Assembly: GCF_023501975.1 (NCBI RefSeq)
Contig: NZ_JAMFLH010000002.1
Location: 124,001 to 188,000 of the forward strand
Origin: Altererythrobacter sp. KTW20L
Lineage (GTDB): Bacteria; Pseudomonadota; Alphaproteobacteria; Sphingomonadales; Sphingomonadaceae
Length of the DNA stretch: 64,000 nucleotides
Reading direction: 5' to 3'
Positions 8,995 through 62,139 of this stretch are shown here, piece after piece; the first letter of the stretch is position 1, and the number at the start of each line of letters is the position of its first letter. Both the position numbers and the translations under genes were made by a program. The notes under the pieces are model-generated. The model was not told where the DNA came from and ran no database searches. It was given only the letters and a program-made list of their open reading frames with translations.

Positions 8995-9852
8995 TCAGGC
9001 GGCCTTCCCGGTCTCAAGCGCCAGTTGCGCCGTTGACTTGTTTGGGGGCTTGATGGGAGGCGCGTCCTTGGCAGGCATCGGCAGGGCAAGGCTCGCCACC
9101 AGCGTGCGCAGTTCCTGCCGGGCGACGAGGTGGCTGGTGCCCAGTTCACCCAGGTGGCCCTTGTCGAGCAGGGTCAGGCCCGAAGGAAACAGTTCGCGAT
9201 AGACCACCCGTTCGGACAGGCCGTGGGACACGCGGAAGCCCACCCGGCGCGAAAGTTCGCCCAGCGCCTGGTCAAGCCGCCGCTGGTTGCGGGCATCGCT
9301 GTGGCCGGTGCGGTTCCTGACCACCACCCAGTCCATCTGCCGCCGTTGCTGTTCGATGGCCGTGCGGCTGCGCTTCAGCCGGGCTTCCCAGATCAGCTCG
9401 GCATAGAAGCTGAGGCGGCGCACCTTGAAACTTTCGGCATCGACCTGGCCGATCAGGTCGAAATCGACAAAACTGTCGTTCATCGGCGTGACCAGGGTAT
9501 CGGCCTCGGTCGCCACGTGGCGGGCGAAGGGATCGTCGCGGCCCGGCGTATCGAAGATCAGGAAATCCATGCCCTGCCCCAGCCGGGCGACCTGTGCCTC
9601 CAGTTCCTCCACGGTCGAACCGTCGAACACCTCGCAGAGCGGGCCGGGCAGGTCGATCTTGCGGCGCGAGGCGGTTTCGGCGCGGTTCTCGCAATAGCGG
9701 TGCATGGTCGCCTGGCGCACGTCGAGGTCGATCGCCGCCACCTTTGCCCCCTGATAGGACAGCGCCACGGCCACGTGGACCGCCGTGGTCGATTTGCCCG
9801 TCCCGCCCTTCTCGTTGGCGAAGACAATGCGGTGGGGAGCGGAGAAGGTCAC
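8995..9852 (-). CDS. mipZ: MipZ, division-plane positioning ParA-like ATPase
   Basis: 285 residues. MipZ forms a bipolar gradient by binding ParB near origins and inhibits FtsZ polymerisation, placing the division site at midcell. The deviant Walker A motif NEKGGTGKSTTAVH (13-26) and the switch region FDTPGRDDPFARHVA are intact, and the length fits the alphaproteobacterial family. It is divergent from panC with a 76-base shared upstream region, and followed closely by the small J-domain gene. Confidence 0.92.
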   Translation of the reverse strand: MTFSAPHRIVFANEKGGTGKSTTAVHVAVALSYQGAKVAAIDLDVRQATMHRYCENRAETASRRKIDLPGPLCEVFDGSTVEELEAQVARLGQGMDFLIFDTPGRDDPFARHVATEADTLVTPMNDSFVDFDLIGQVDAESFKVRRLSFYAELIWEARLKRSRTAIEQQRRQMDWVVVRNRTGHSDARNQRRLDQALGELSRRVGFRVSHGLSERVVYRELFPSGLTLLDKGHLGELGTSHLVARQELRTLVASLALPMPAKDAPPIKPPNKSTAQLALETGKAA

Positions 9853-23984: not shown

Positions 23985-24110
23985 GGGCGAACGGACCCGC
24001 AGGGTCCGCAAGGCCGAACGGCCGCCCGCAGCGCAGGGAGGCGAAGTCGACCGGTAGCGAGGAAAGCCAAGGCGGCGGATGCCGCCGCCGGCGCCTGAGG
24101 CGCCTGGCGA
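23985..24110 (-). repeat. Dispersed ATCC-loop repeat unit, copy A (3' of tRNA-Thr)
   Basis: Read on the minus strand it starts 3 bases after the tRNA-Thr CCA end, with a hairpin of six pairs (GGCGGC, loop ATCC, GCCGCC at 24071-24086), followed by the conserved tail TTGGCTTTCCTCGCT..., then GCGGGCGGCCGTTCGGCC, which forms a second small stem. Closest to copies B2 and C2. Confidence 0.8.
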
Positions 24111-24112
24111 AA

Positions 24113-31838: not shown

Positions 31839-32229
31839 TGTTACCCGGATCACCCTTGCACTCGGCGCCTCCGCCATGCTGTCGGCCTGCGGCGGCGGGC
31901 TGATCGCAGCGCGTGACCGGCCGGATGAATTCGCCGTGCAGCGCCAGGCGCCGCTGGTGATCCCGCCCGATTTCTCGCTCGCCCCGCCCGCCCCCGGCGC
32001 CCCGCGCCCGGCGGAAGGCACTGCCGCGCAGCAGGCACTGGAAGCCCTGTTCCCCGCCGCCACGCGCAGCGCGGTGGAAACCAGCGCGCTCGACCGTGCA
32101 GGCACGCCCGAAGCAGCCATCCGCTCCACCGTGGGCGATCCGTCCACCTATACGGTGAACAAGGGCGTCACCACCCGCACCATCATCGCCGCACCCGAGG
32201 GTGACGGCCAGGCGGCGCGGGCTATCTAG
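31831..32229 (+). CDS. DUF3035-like lipoprotein
   Basis: 132 residues. A signal peptide ends in LSACGG, a lipobox with Cys20. The mature part has a Pro-rich start (PLVIPPDFSLAPPAPGAP), as in the DUF3035 lipoproteins found after lspA in sphingomonads, then an Ala-rich helix. Role unknown. It overlaps the lspA end by eight bases. Copy B1 of the dispersed repeat starts five bases after its stop. Confidence 0.82.
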   Translation: MRNVTRITLALGASAMLSACGGGLIAARDRPDEFAVQRQAPLVIPPDFSLAPPAPGAPRPAEGTAAQQALEALFPAATRSAVETSALDRAGTPEAAIRSTVGDPSTYTVNKGVTTRTIIAAPEGDGQAARAI

Positions 32230-32234
32230 TCTTT

Positions 32235-32334
32235 CGAAGGCGCATCCGCGCCTTCGTCCTCGGCGCTGATCCCTTCGGCTTCGCCTGCGGGGCACCTGCG
32301 GGCGGCCGCTTGGCCTTTGGTTCGCTGCGCGAAC
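32235..32334 (+). repeat. Dispersed ATCC-loop repeat unit, copy B1 (3' of the lipoprotein gene)
   Basis: Starts with an eight-pair hairpin (CGAAGGCG / CGCCTTCG, loop CATCCG, 32235-32256), then the tail TCCTCGGCGCTGATCCCT and GCACCTGCGGGCGG. It faces copy B2, so B1 and B2 together form a large imperfect palindrome with arms 32274-32334 and 32359-32419. Confidence 0.8.
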
Positions 32335-32358
32335 ATCCAACGCATCTTTGAGAGGCTA

Positions 32359-32475
32359 GTTCGGGCCGCAGGCTCGCAAGGCCGAACGGCCGCCCGCAGC
32401 GAAGGGAGGCGAAGCCGACCGGCAGCGAGGATAGCCAAGGGGCCGGATGGACCCGCCGGCGCTTGAGGCGAATCA
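32359..32475 (-). repeat. Dispersed ATCC-loop repeat unit, copy B2
   Basis: On the minus strand the hairpin is GGGTCC, loop ATCC, GGCCCC (32439-32454, one G-T wobble), followed by TTGGCTATCCTCGCTG and GCGGGCGGCCGTTCGGCC. Closest to copy A. Confidence 0.8.
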
Positions 32476-32483
32476 AGATTCCC

Positions 32484-32582
32484 GCCCGAAGGGTGGTGGA
32501 GGGGGCTGGCGCAACGCCGGACTTACCCCTCCGTCAGCGCTGCGCGCTGCCACCTCCCCATCGCTACGCGACAGGGAGGAAC
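32484..32582 (-). repeat. Second type of intergenic repeat with a terminator-like hairpin at the 3' end of the CNNM gene
   Basis: Just after the CNNM gene stop (minus strand) lies a hairpin CCTCCC...CGC TAC GCG...GGGAGG (32553-32579). The whole segment (CCCCTCCGTCAGCGCTGCG... and neighbours) is of a kind I recall from many alphaproteobacterial intergenic regions; only one copy is in this window. With B1 and B2 it fills the 353-base gap 32230-32582. Confidence 0.55.
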
Positions 32583-33875
32583 CTAAATCCGCACAACCAA
32601 CAATTTGTCTATCCGTCGCCCGTCCATATCGACCACTTCGATCCGCCAGCCCTGCTCCTCGAAGTATTCGCCCACCACCGGCAGCTTTTTCAGCTGGAAC
32701 AGCACAAAACCTGCCGCCGTGGCGAATTCGCGGTGTTCGGGCAGGTCGAGGCCCAGCCTGTTTGCCAGCATTTCGGCAGGCATGGTGCCCGACACCAGCA
32801 GCGATCCGTCCTCGCGCTCAACCACCATCGGCTCGTCATCGTCATCCTGGTGGCTGGCGAAGGTTCCGGCCATTGCCGACAGGAGATCGGCCGTGGTCAC
32901 CACGCCGTCGAGGTGGCCGTATTCATCGTGCACCATGGCCATGCGGGTATCGGAATGCTGTAGCACGCGCAGCGCGTCCATCGCATCGAGCTGGTCGGGC
33001 ACCACTTCCGCCTTGTAGAGAAGATCGCCCAGCACGATTGGCTGGCCCGCCACCTGCAGGGCCAGGATCTCGCGCACCTTGACCACGCCCAGCACCCGGT
33101 CTGGCGAGCCATCGCCTACAGGCAGCAGCGAATGGGGGCTTTCGGCCACCATCGAGAGGATCTCCTCCTCGCCGCCGGTCGCATCGATCCAGTCGAGTTC
33201 GGTCCTTGGCGTCATTAGTTCACGCACCGGCCGGTCGGCCAGCTTCATGATGCCCGACAGGATCGCCCGCTCCTGCTCCTCGATCACGCCGCTGCGGGTG
33301 GCATCGGCCAGGATCATCTGCAATTCCTCGCCGGTCAGCCCGTGCTCGCCCTTGTTGCGCACGCCCAGCAGGCGCAGGATCAGGGCCGACGAAGTGTCCA
33401 GCAGCCAGACGAACGGCGCGGTCACGCGGGCCAGCAACGCCATCGGTAATGCCATGACCTGGGCGATCGGCACGGCGGCGCGCAAGGCCAGTTGCTTGGG
33501 CACCAGTTCGCCCACCACCAGGCTGAGGAAGGTGGTGAGCACAATCACCAGCGCAAAGCCCGCATTGTCCGCCAGGTCTGCCGGGAAACCCAGCCATGCC
33601 AGCCGCTCGCCCACCGGCCCGCCCAGCGTGGCGCCCGAGACGGCGCCCGAAATCACCCCGATCAGGGTAATGCCGATCTGCACGGTGGAGAGGAACTTGC
33701 CGGGCTCTGAGGCGAGCTTGAGGGCGATGGCCGCGCTCTTGCTGCCGCCTTGGGCCTTGACCCGCAACTGCGCCGGCCGGGCCGAGACAATCGCCAGTTC
33801 CGACATGGCGAATACGCCGTTGAGCAGGATGAGCCCGACAAGGGCGGCGAAGTAATGCCAGGGAAAGGCTGTCAT
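32583..33875 (-). CDS. CNNM/CorC family membrane protein (hemolysin-like) with CBS pair
   Basis: 430 residues. An N-terminal CNNM transmembrane domain with four helices (LLNGVFAMSELAIVSAR) is followed by a CBS pair (PVRELMTPRTELDW and HDEYGHLDGVVT) and a CorC/HlyC domain. Such proteins act in magnesium or other divalent cation export. ATG 33875 is preferred to an upstream TTG at 33908. It shares an intergenic region with the divergent OmpA-like gene. Confidence 0.9.
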   Translation of the reverse strand: MTAFPWHYFAALVGLILLNGVFAMSELAIVSARPAQLRVKAQGGSKSAAIALKLASEPGKFLSTVQIGITLIGVISGAVSGATLGGPVGERLAWLGFPADLADNAGFALVIVLTTFLSLVVGELVPKQLALRAAVPIAQVMALPMALLARVTAPFVWLLDTSSALILRLLGVRNKGEHGLTGEELQMILADATRSGVIEEQERAILSGIMKLADRPVRELMTPRTELDWIDATGGEEEILSMVAESPHSLLPVGDGSPDRVLGVVKVREILALQVAGQPIVLGDLLYKAEVVPDQLDAMDALRVLQHSDTRMAMVHDEYGHLDGVVTTADLLSAMAGTFASHQDDDDEPMVVEREDGSLLVSGTMPAEMLANRLGLDLPEHREFATAAGFVLFQLKKLPVVGEYFEEQGWRIEVVDMDGRRIDKLLVVRI

Positions 33876-33954
33876 GGGAGACTTGTGGCTAGCAGATTTG
33901 GCGGCCAAGTCTAAGACTTATGGTTCCGGCCTAAGGCAGGGGGAGAGGCCGAGT

Positions 33955-33979
33955 GGAACCATGCAGACGACCGGCCGTT
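33955..33979 (+). promoter_or_regulatory. EcfG-type stress promoter (GGAAC-N16-CGTT) before the OmpA-like gene
   Basis: GGAAC at 33955-33959 and CGTT at 33976-33979 with a 16-base spacer, 78 bases upstream of the OmpA-like ATG. Matches the alphaproteobacterial general stress sigma consensus. Confidence 0.65.
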
Positions 33980-34003
33980 TCTCCCTCACACGATTTCAGG
34001 CCA

Positions 34004-34019
34004 TCACATGTTAATGTGA
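34004..34019 (+). promoter_or_regulatory. Perfect dyad in the leader of the OmpA-like gene
   Basis: TCACAT-GTTA-ATGTGA is a perfect 6-4-6 palindrome lying between the predicted promoter and the ATG. It may be a repressor operator or a small leader stem. No regulator is known for it. Confidence 0.35.
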
Positions 34020-34057
34020 CCGGACCTAGCCAAGCCGGATAACAAGAGGAGCAGTCC

Positions 34058-34741
34058 ATGACAAAATCCCGTTTTCTCGTTTCGAGTGTCGCAGCACTTT
34101 CAATGGTCGCACTGGTCGGCTGCGTCACCGATCCCAACACCGGTGAACGCACCGTATCGCGCACCGCCATTGGCGGTGTGGGCGGTGCCGGCCTTGGCTA
34201 TCTGCTGGGCAGCGTGATTGGCGGCGGAAAGACCACCCGCATCATCGGCGCCGGTATCGGCGCGGCCGCTGGCGGCTATGTCGGCTACCGGATGGACGAA
34301 CAGATCCGCGAGCTCGACGAAGTCACCGCCGGAACCGGCGTGGACGTGACCGAGACGCCCGATGGCAGCGGCATCCTGGTCAACCTACCCGATGTGACCT
34401 TCGCGGTCGATTCGGCCACGGTCAGCCCGGCCATGCGTGCCGTGCTCGACAACGTGGCGCAGTCCATGATCACCTATCCCAATTCGCTGGTCGACGTAAT
34501 GGGCCACACCGATTCGACTGGCAGCGCGACCTACAACCTCGACCTGTCGCGCCGCCGTGCCGAATCGGTTGCCAACTACCTGGTGTCACGCGGAGTCAGC
34601 CGCGCGCGGATCGAGACCATCGGCTATGGCGAAGAGTATCCGGTGGCGGACAACACCACGGCAGCTGGCCGCTCGGTCAACCGCCGCGTGGAGATCCGCA
34701 TCACGCCGGTGACCGAAGCCGACGTTCGCGCAGCATATTGA
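34058..34741 (+). CDS. OmpA-family lipoprotein with glycine-zipper region (YiaD/YfiB-like)
   Basis: 227 residues. The lipobox LVGC gives lipidation at Cys22. A glycine-zipper stretch (GGVGGAGLGYLLGSVIGGG and GAGIGAAAGGYVGY, about 40-75) precedes an OmpA peptidoglycan-binding domain whose diaminopimelate-binding residues are in GHTDSTGS and LSRRRAESV, ending NRRVEIRI. It anchors the outer membrane to peptidoglycan. GAGGAG stands before the ATG, and an EcfG-type promoter lies upstream. Confidence 0.92.
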   Translation: MTKSRFLVSSVAALSMVALVGCVTDPNTGERTVSRTAIGGVGGAGLGYLLGSVIGGGKTTRIIGAGIGAAAGGYVGYRMDEQIRELDEVTAGTGVDVTETPDGSGILVNLPDVTFAVDSATVSPAMRAVLDNVAQSMITYPNSLVDVMGHTDSTGSATYNLDLSRRRAESVANYLVSRGVSRARIETIGYGEEYPVADNTTAAGRSVNRRVEIRITPVTEADVRAAY

Positions 34742-34745
34742 GTTT

Positions 34746-34833
34746 CGCTGGCCCATCCGGGCCAGCGTCCTCGGTGCTGTTCCCTTCGGGGCACCTGCGG
34801 GCGGGCTTTGCCCTTTGGGGCCTGCAGCCCAAG
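34746..34833 (+). repeat. Dispersed ATCC-loop repeat unit, copy D (3' of the OmpA-like gene)
   Basis: Starts five bases after the stop with a perfect nine-pair hairpin (CGCTGGCCC, loop ATCC, GGGCCAGCG, 34746-34767), then TCCTCGGTGCTGTTCCCT and GCACCTGCGGGCGGGC. Closest to copies B1 and C1, with a short internal deletion. Confidence 0.8.
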
Positions 34834-34853
34834 CGAATGGAAGCTGGAATTGG

Positions 34854-34879
34854 AAAGGGCGGCCCGCTGGTCGCCCTTT
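34854..34879. terminator. Intrinsic terminator between OmpA-like gene and cysQ-like gene
   Basis: An eleven-pair stem (AAAGGGCGGCC with GGTCGCCCTTT, loop CGCT) followed by T on the plus strand and by A/T-rich bases on the other. It abuts the stop of the convergent phosphatase gene. Confidence 0.8.
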
Positions 34880-35677
34880 TCATTTGAGCGCGGGGATTTC
34901 TACCGAATATTTCTCCGCTCGTCCGGCCAGCCGCTCCACCGCCGCGCCGTGAATGGCGGGAGCGCTTACCAGCAGGCCGAAGGCGCGCGGGTCGCGCTTG
35001 TTGTAGGCCAGTGCCTGGCCGAAGGCGTCCGATACCCGGGCCCCTGCCTCGCGCGCGATCAGGGTGGCGGCGGCGACATCCCATTCGAAGCCCCAGCGCA
35101 GCGTTGCCAGCAGGTCCGCCCGGTCATCGGCCACCATGGCGATCCTGAGCGCGATGGAATTGGGCTTGTCGACCAGCACCAGGTCCGCATCCTCGCGCAT
35201 CAGCGAATCGGCCGGAACGCGCGACCCGGGGAAGTCGCGGCGCTTGCTCGCGCCGATATCCACCCCGTTGAGCCGCGCCCCCGTGCCCGCCGTGGCGGCC
35301 CAGACCTCGCCACGCGCCGGAGCCACCAGCAGTCCGAGCAATGGCCGCCCCGCGCTCACCAGCGCGACCGAGACCGCCCAACCTGTCCGTCCGCGCAGGA
35401 AATCGCGCGTCCCGTCGATCGGATCGACCACCCAGATGAGGTCGCGCTCCAAACGGGACGGGTCGTCGGCGGTTTCCTCGGATAGCCACCCGGCCGAGGG
35501 CAGCAATTTGCCCAGCTCCTGCTTCAGGAAGCCATCCACCTCGATATCGGCGGCGCAGACCGGGCTGTCGCCGCCCTTGTCCCAGCTTTCGACCGCATGG
35601 CCCGCGCCGGGCCACTGGCCGATGGCGATGGCTCCCGCCTCCACGCAAATGTCCCTCAGGCGAAAACGGTCTATCAT
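34880..35677 (-). CDS. cysQ: 3'(2'),5'-bisphosphate nucleotidase (CysQ-like, inositol monophosphatase family)
   Basis: 265 residues. Metal-site blocks are LSEETADD, WVVDPIDGTRDFLRG and the C-terminal GFEWDVAAATLIAREAG. CysQ removes the 3' phosphate of PAP made in sulfate assimilation; the alternative is a generic inositol monophosphatase. It is divergent from sucC with a 98-base shared upstream region. Confidence 0.85.
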   Translation of the reverse strand: MIDRFRLRDICVEAGAIAIGQWPGAGHAVESWDKGGDSPVCAADIEVDGFLKQELGKLLPSAGWLSEETADDPSRLERDLIWVVDPIDGTRDFLRGRTGWAVSVALVSAGRPLLGLLVAPARGEVWAATAGTGARLNGVDIGASKRRDFPGSRVPADSLMREDADLVLVDKPNSIALRIAMVADDRADLLATLRWGFEWDVAAATLIAREAGARVSDAFGQALAYNKRDPRAFGLLVSAPAIHGAAVERLAGRAEKYSVEIPALK

Positions 35678-53861: not shown

Positions 53862-53993
53862 CCTGCCCGGGAGAGAGCGCGATTGGCGCGGGGGGTTTAA
53901 CGGTAGGAAAGAGCCGGGCCGGGATATGGGCTGGGTTGGGTGGTGTAGGAAAGCTCCGTTGCAATCCAGCGCCGTCGCGTGAAGTCACTCCTT

Positions 53994-54063
53994 CGTCATT
54001 CCCGCGCAGGCGGGAATCCAGCGCGAACCTCGGAACTGGATTCCCGCCTGCGCGGGAATGACG
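53994..54063. repeat. Perfect 28-base inverted repeat (REP-like)
   Basis: Arms 53994-54021 and 54036-54063 are exact reverse complements (core ATTCCCGCGCAGGCGGGAAT) with a 14-base loop. This core is of a type I recall as a common dispersed repeat in sphingomonads and other proteobacteria. It ends 22 bases before the wecC stop and may terminate transcription from both sides. Confidence 0.85.
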
Positions 54064-54085
54064 AATCTTAAGAGCAGCGCTTAGT

Positions 54086-61877: not shown

Positions 61878-61910
61878 TTTTTGTTTCGCCTCAAGCGGAT
61901 CCCTTGCTTT

Positions 61911-62010
61911 CCGCACCCCCATCTGGGGGCGCGGTCCTCGGTGCTGATCCCTGCACTACGCTTCGGGGCACCTGCGGGCGGGCGTTTGCCCTATGTGGTC
62001 CGCTTGTCGC
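61911..62010 (+). repeat. Dispersed ATCC-loop repeat unit, copy C1
   Basis: Hairpin CCGCACCCCC, loop ATCT, GGGGGCGCGG (61911-61934), then TCCTCGGTGCTGATCCCT and GCACCTGCGGGCGGGCG. It is on the plus strand in the rsfS-rlmH gap and faces copy C2. Confidence 0.8.
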
Positions 62011-62039
62011 GGACCAGACCAGCTTACCGAGGAAGCGCG

Positions 62040-62135
62040 GGGACGGGCCGGAGGCCCGCAAGGCCGACCGGCCGTCGCGCGTCGCCGCGCGGTAGCCTAA
62101 GGGGCCGGATGGCCCCGCCGGCGCTTGAGGCAAGA
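62040..62135 (-). repeat. Dispersed ATCC-loop repeat unit, copy C2 (3' of rsfS)
   Basis: On the minus strand it starts a few bases after the rsfS stop: GCCTCAAGCGCCGGCG, then the hairpin GGGGCC, loop ATCC, GGCCCC (62101-62116), then TTAGGCTACC and GGCCGGTCGGCC. It is closest to A and B2. Confidence 0.8.
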
Positions 62136-62139
62136 CAAG

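Follow-up and report, generated by a model that had tools for sequence, protein, structure and literature searches.

The RIME and ABC elements of rhizobia and the YPAL elements of Yersinia are mosaic palindromic intergenic elements, with YPAL located near stop codons, and REPINs are paired palindromes. The repeats described here are likened to RIME, ABC and YPAL by general description. They also resemble REPs and BIMEs, which one study describes as short palindromic repeats that form inverted dimers and are located chiefly between genes that converge or run in the same direction; in the two species for which a diagram is given, the distance to gene 3' ends is within 20 bp (PMC3733652). Because published REPs share this habit, 3'-end placement as such is not new. 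In the same study, REPs of the CGTC superfamily are defined by an unpaired CGTC tag, a stem of 8-9 bp with A-T in the first two pairs, a loop of 4-5 and a CCA tail, and are reported to lack a known transposase (PMC3733652). The present repeats also resemble REPINs, characterized as miniature mobile DNA built on REPs, with dynamics of their own within the genome (PMC3116915), as well as MITEs and enterobacterial intergenic repeats, presented as small, non-autonomous mobile elements of ~100-300 nt in intergenic regions (PMC2229807, PMC2759123).

Our literature search found no published description of the hairpin-module family reported here. A total of 3,055 REPs was counted in Erythrobacter cryptus with one paper's own tool (PMC12306157); these may overlap with the present family, as the passages available from that paper give no motif. 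The repeats were found in a stretch of 64,000 nucleotides from Altererythrobacter sp. KTW20L (contig NZ_JAMFLH010000002.1, positions 124,001 to 188,000), referred to below as the window. Our best reading is that they represent a mobile mosaic REP/BIME-like repeat without RAYT, characterized by base-exact docking at gene ends and by exchange of the end hairpin.

Unit anatomy, copies and host range

One unit is ~90-120 nt long and is composed of a leader (TTTGTTTTN), a terminal hairpin of ~9 bp (H1) with the loop ATCC or CTCC, a conserved TCCTCG foot directly after it, and the hairpins H2, H3 and, usually, H4. Units are either solitary or, commonly, arranged as inverted pairs with H1 at each outer end. 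All six units reported by the initial annotation were present in the window where it had placed them and, set in a common orientation, were characterized by a T-rich leader, H1 and a tail of further hairpins, as follows.

23993..24112, minus strand: unit A, type Y; the CCA of tRNA-Thr is followed without a gap by the T-rich leader; outer limit set at the last hairpin, by eye
24086-24071, minus strand: H1 of unit A, GGCGGC-ATCC-GCCGCC, 26 nt behind the CCA and followed by further hairpins
32230..32334, plus strand: unit B1, type X; stop codon of the lipoprotein gene followed by a leader of 5 nt; E 2.8e-17
32235-32256, plus strand: H1 of unit B1, followed by the TCCTCG foot, H2, H3 (32304-32315) and H4 (32320-32334, by eye)
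32363..32476, minus strand: unit B2, type Y; forms an inverted pair with B1; inner end approximate
32454-32439, minus strand: H1 of unit B2, one mismatch
34742..34830, plus strand: unit D, type X with a short H2 loop; 4-nt leader behind the stop codon of the OmpA-like gene; H1 at 34746-34767; E 2.0e-15
61903..62015, plus strand: unit C1, type X; inverted partner of C2; E 4.5e-18
61911-61934, plus strand: H1 of unit C1, ATCT loop, one mismatch
62045..62139, minus strand: unit C2, type Y; its first base immediately follows the stop codon of rsfS; H1 at 62116-62101

What had been reported for these six units was confirmed. The H1 loop was ATCC, except for ATCT in C1, and the stems did pair in spite of their differing sequences, with one mismatch each in the B2 and C1 stems. 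The two proposed tail types were found again: in type X (B1, C1, D), H1 was followed by TCCTCGGTGCTG or a close variant, and in type Y (A, B2, C2) by TTGGCT or TTAGGCT and the sequence downstream. A third tail type (TCCTCGCTAGA...) was observed in relatives. B and C were indeed inverted pairs, with their hairpin heads outward and their tails facing inward, and the placement of A, B1, D and C2 at 3' ends held, behind the CCA of tRNA-Thr for A and behind stop codons for the rest. At the head of C1 there was no gene end; this head faced the following gene, which we take to be rlmH and which starts at a distance of 34 nt. The names tRNA-Thr, lipoprotein, rsfS and OmpA-like were likewise taken over from the initial annotation or presumed.

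Nested units were observed by eye at five loci (L050, L181, L214, L220 and L224), where one unit contained the beginning of a second leader and H1, either immediately within its TCCTCGG foot or immediately after its hairpin. This pattern suggests a preferred joining point.

A perfect inverted repeat of 30 bp, formed by TTCGTCATTCCCGCGCAGGCGGGAATCCAG and its complement with 14 nt between the arms, was also present in the window at 53992-54065. By its resemblance to the published description, it could be a CGTC REP dimer in head-to-head arrangement.

When the own genome (3,088,045 bases in 35 contigs) was searched by BLAST with the B region, many partial copies were obtained. With a covariance model built on 14 aligned X units (86 positions, 23 pairs), 15 copies were identified in this genome at E <= 2.1e-14, and two more between 1e-4 and 1e-3. 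Among 41 relatives, the model matched all 25 genomes of the genus, the own genome included, and none of the 16 from other families. The own genome had 17 matches and 23 of the 24 other genus genomes had 6 to 49 each; one weak match was found in G016. In draws of more than 40 genomes few candidates were scored per genome, and negatives may hide weak copies; in the family-wide draw, matches were obtained in 60 of 249 genomes, representing 27 of the 96 genera, and in the order-wide draw 45 of 246 genomes did, all 45 belonging to the same family, with the remaining genomes only partly listed by family. A search of named genomes with the consensus pattern returned 22 stretches, including some from Erythrobacter, Aurantiacibacter, Alteraurantiacibacter and Parerythrobacter. 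Carriage by plasmids or phages was considered and set aside, as one 286-base composite had no match in either the plasmid or the phage collection.

The repeats had been proposed to form a spreading family, and the number of copies in the own genome and its relatives exceeded that first reported. Few copies, no enrichment at 3' ends and no covariation had been named as outcomes that would speak against the proposal; none of the three occurred.

Docking behind stop codons and tRNA ends

To describe the position of units relative to genes, we used 118 units, corresponding to the 127 model matches minus 7 exact duplicates and 2 matches without an upstream gene; many of the 127 were the strongest per genome rather than a random sample, and gene calls came from a small codon-score script rather than from annotation. 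The head side faced the 3' end of the nearest gene in 86 of the 118 units. A same-strand stop codon was located 0-30 nt from the unit in 66 of them, which bears out the reported 3'-end placement, with a distance of exactly 9 nt in 25 units and of 3-4 nt in 11, and an opposite-strand gene was found at 0-30 nt on the head side in 2/118. Measured from H1, a stop triplet lay 9 nt ahead in 30/118 units, 12 nt ahead in 12, and 3 and 4 nt ahead in 10 each, while each offset from 13 to 39 nt accounted for 0-8 units. The units at exactly 9 nt belonged to 13 separate clusters of upstream proteins (68 proteins compared). No such peak was observed on the tail side of the 64 single units (at most 3 of 22 at one distance). 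Moreover, 17 units, some of them mutually orthologous, were linked to tRNA genes, and H1 began 9-10 nt behind the CCA in 7 of these. The leader TTTGTTTTN was found both near and far from stop codons and is therefore part of the element. At L221, the unit appeared, by eye, to be inserted in the last codons of a gene, supplying a new stop.

The units had been suggested to be terminators. As standard intrinsic terminators, they did not withstand comparison: a GC-rich hairpin followed by a T run is not what they present, since the T-rich stretch stands before H1 and not after it, and terminator-like sites were found in 9 of 120 units in sense orientation, 0 of 120 in antisense and 2 of 118 upstream control segments. 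Positions 31900-35000 of the window had one such site, versus 1.7 in shuffled sequences. A search of the window against Rfam at the gathering threshold returned two tRNAs only, and a search of 32200-32500, the region to which a threshold of E 1 was applied, gave no match.

We also considered whether the T-rich leader might be the T-tract of a native terminator. A hairpin below -8 kcal/mol ending at the leader was found in 7/25 of the exact-9 units versus 3/25 control windows, in 12/41 of the other near units versus 18/41 controls, and in 9/52 of the far units versus 15/52 controls. As the excess was confined to the exact-9 units, this origin was judged weak, with L052 and L231 as single clear cases, by eye, of a native hairpin before the leader.

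A broader role at RNA 3' ends was also considered. The units might be cis-acting modules, selected gene by gene and acting as folded transcripts, that serve as an unusual terminator, an exonuclease block or a processing site. That the units lie in sense orientation, at a distance from stop codons and tRNA CCA ends that is exact to the base, would be expected of such modules, as would the conservation of body and foot and the recurrence of units behind the same genes across several genomes and genera. In addition, at one site (L241), the place of the element was taken in the sister sequence by an intrinsic terminator: a 14-bp terminator was present at 11075-11106 of L292 (G002) and none was found in the element-bearing composite of L241 (G024). 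Against this explanation, H1 is followed by TCCTCG and not by T, terminator-like sites are few, and several orthologous gene ends have no unit.

The type of non-canonical pair also argues against folding of the transcript. If folding of the transcript were selected, G-U pairs should be tolerated on the gene strand, where they were in fact rare. In 120 distinct units, the gene strand had 2 G-U and 21 A-C pairs in the inner part of H1, 6 and 17 in H2, and 4 and 3 in H3, i.e., 12 versus 41 altogether, counted on copies that are related and not independent; the terminal H1 pair (10 and 10) was left out of this comparison. The excess of A-C is a hint, drawn from related copies, that the opposite strand folds. 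Overall, a function of the units at RNA 3' ends may possibly exist, judging by sequence, but we consider selection of each unit as such a module to be somewhat unlikely.

Covariation, block change of H1 and presence in sister genomes

The conservation of pairing across differing stems, a claim of the initial annotation, proved strongly covariant when compared with shuffles. In the 14 aligned units, the structure paired in 97.2% of cells, with 33 double changes versus 9.8 in shuffles. In the 127 matches (120 distinct), 96.9% of cells were paired and 425 cells showed double changes, versus 121.8 in shuffles and at most 61 when the structure was slid along the alignment, an alignment that leans towards the model because it was fitted to it. 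Covariation exceeded 500 of 500 shuffles on all five measures for the 120 distinct units, and on four of five for the 14 units, the fifth (further pair types) exceeding 498 of 500.

To determine how H1 changes, we compared orthologous unit ends in two pairs of sister genomes, G002 and G024 on the one hand and G011 and G013 on the other. The ortholog table contained 38 rows, two of which were omitted because their outside flanks scored poorly, although one of the two, L212/L251, has the appearance of a true replacement, leaving 36 comparisons; one G024 hairpin figured in two rows, both counted as block changes, and identities exclude gaps. Eighteen of the 36 ends had no double-changed inner H1 pair, 5 had one or two, and 13 had three to five out of eight. 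Stepwise change thus also occurs, at the 5 ends that differed by one or two pairs. The next 60 nt were retained at 7 of the 13 block-changed ends, with 56-60 bases aligned at 93-100% identity; the remaining 6 had a differing body as well or a nested unit. The outside flank beside the leader also differed at several ends (e.g., L222 and L258). At ends with such differences in flank or body, a larger stretch may therefore have been replaced, or a new unit inserted at the same position. L231/L257 was the cleanest case, with a new stem at both ends, between a conserved flank and a conserved body. The arms of block-changed ends were found at another locus of the same genome in 8/13 and 12/13 cases, and those of the other ends in 10/23 and 13/23.

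Covariation is usually read as selected RNA structure; here, 53 of the 61 double-changed inner pairs fell in the 13 block-changed ends, which makes block-changed hairpins a warning for RNA-motif discovery. Matching changes in H1 look largely copied rather than slowly evolved. The original proposal that the structure is either selected or copied as such therefore leans towards copying, with 13 of 36 ends changed as a block and 7 of these with their body kept. The simplest cause would be ectopic exchange through shared sequence, sometimes including more of the unit. A mutational artefact, in which template switching at replication perfects imperfect palindromes and nothing passes between copies, would account for the rarity of mismatches, which were of more than one kind, and for the 90 perfect stems among the 152 found by pattern. 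However, template switching copies one existing arm, whereas block-changed ends differed from the sister in both arms, and the new arms were mostly present at another locus of the same genome; we thus hold this explanation to be very unlikely.

Stems were diverse (14 distinct stems in the 17 units of one genome) and any one genome tended to have a single loop sequence, a pattern that would be expected of a factor reading the loop and not the stem. ATCC or ATCT was found in 17 of 17 units of G000, ATCC in 35 of 37 of G002 and CTCC in 14 of 14 of G011; loops were less uniform in G024 (ATCC in 31/36) and G013 (CTCC in 14/18), and mixed in G015, G017, G018 and G291. One conceivable reading, which we regard as unlikely, is a dedicated Erythrobacteraceae system in which hairpin-capped modules would be placed at exact gene ends and their terminal hairpins swapped, a lineage-specific factor would read the four-base loop and TCCTCG, and the module would replace the native terminator at the 3' end of the gene.

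Sister species differed in whether a given site carried a copy of the unit. In G002 and G024, 15 of 24 and 15 of 22 sites, respectively, were paired; of the remaining 16 sites, nine had an aligned sister region, L216, L217, L228 and L250 could not be located, L245 and L255 were rearranged, and L236 lay outside the comparison. In G011 and G013, ten pairs were used, and one G011 site and four G013 sites without an ortholog lay outside the comparison. Three of the nine aligned loci corresponded to a single clean gap in the sister (L214, L221, L229), one to a gap holding 15 unrelated bases (L215), and one to a replaced intergenic region (L241). Instead of the whole composite of L232 (G002), the sister locus L288 (G024) held, near position 9,850, a lone palindrome of the form TTTTG-stem-ATCC-stem-CAAAAC, possibly a remnant of deletion or excision. 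The comparison was not clean at L213, L246 and L254. By eye, the surroundings of the corC-like gene and of rsfS carried differing composites, single units or none in the genus genomes. No target duplication was seen by eye at the few junctions available, and no longer autonomous copy with an internal gene was identified from the spacing of the matches listed.

In the sister region of L254 (L293), the gap was filled by another palindromic repeat, of the CGTCATTGCGAGCGGAGCGAAGCAATCC type.

Taken together, we consider it probable that the units form a family of small mobile mosaic repeats, REP/BIME- or MITE-like with an anatomy of their own, whose H1 is exchanged between copies. A trans-acting enzyme would recognize the hairpin in single-stranded DNA by its loop and foot and not by its stem sequence; ectopic recombination through shared sequence would swap H1, and at times more of the unit, between copies; and such block swapping, more than stepwise compensatory mutation, would produce most of the covariation between the compared sister species. 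The units would presumably be transcribed as 3' UTR. Such an enzyme, a mechanism of docking and a benefit to the host gene are all putative, and no transposase could be linked to the units. Base-exact docking and a conserved body would also be expected from a selected 3'-end function, which speaks against the mobile-repeat reading. Base-exact docking raises the question of which enzyme or selection senses the gene end and of how new 3' UTRs arise, and the family offers many natural copies, absences and swaps as test material.

Comparison with described repeat families

The units could be ordinary REPs of the GTAG or CGTC superfamily, moved by a RAYT transposase. They are palindromes located downstream of genes, form inverted dimers and reside in an alphaproteobacterial host. 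Published REPs were placed less than 20 bp from the 3' ends of convergent genes in two species, and the ends of GTAG REPs were reported often to supply the stop codon (PMC3733652). However, Y1_Tnp (PF01797) had 0 matches in the own genome, where a link to RAYT is thus not supported, and was found in 2 of the 25 genus genomes (G009 and G018). The unit is also several hairpins long and not 20-40 bp. No GTAG tetranucleotide was present beside the palindrome, the consensus being TTNCG on one side and TCCTCG on the other. The stem of ~9 bp and the loop of 4 fit the CGTC definition, but the outer pairs were mostly C-G or G-C and not A-T, the CG of CGTC was paired, and there was no CCA tail. Movement as RAYT-driven REPs is accordingly highly improbable in our judgment.

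Compared with BIMEs, the mosaic arrangement is shared, with inverted pairs of the types X-X, X-Y and X-Z and heads outward. Unlike REPs and BIMEs, the present units comprise several hairpins over ~90-120 nt, with free stem sequence, a fixed loop, the TCCTCG foot and a T-rich leader. They also differ in their position, which peaks at exactly 9 nt behind stop codons and at 9-10 nt behind tRNA CCA ends, and in that their terminal hairpin changes as a block between orthologs. REPINs differ in that the own genome is without RAYT, the present units are much longer and their stems are diverse within one genome. Presence or absence in sisters is shared with MITEs, as are inverted ends, although in paired elements only, single units having one such end; no target duplication was evident at the few junctions read by eye, no parent insertion sequence was apparent from the spacing of the matches listed, and the hairpin ends, unlike those of MITEs, are not simple terminal repeats. 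The present family has a distinct multi-hairpin unit that is without the tag, the stem rule and the tail of the published REP families.
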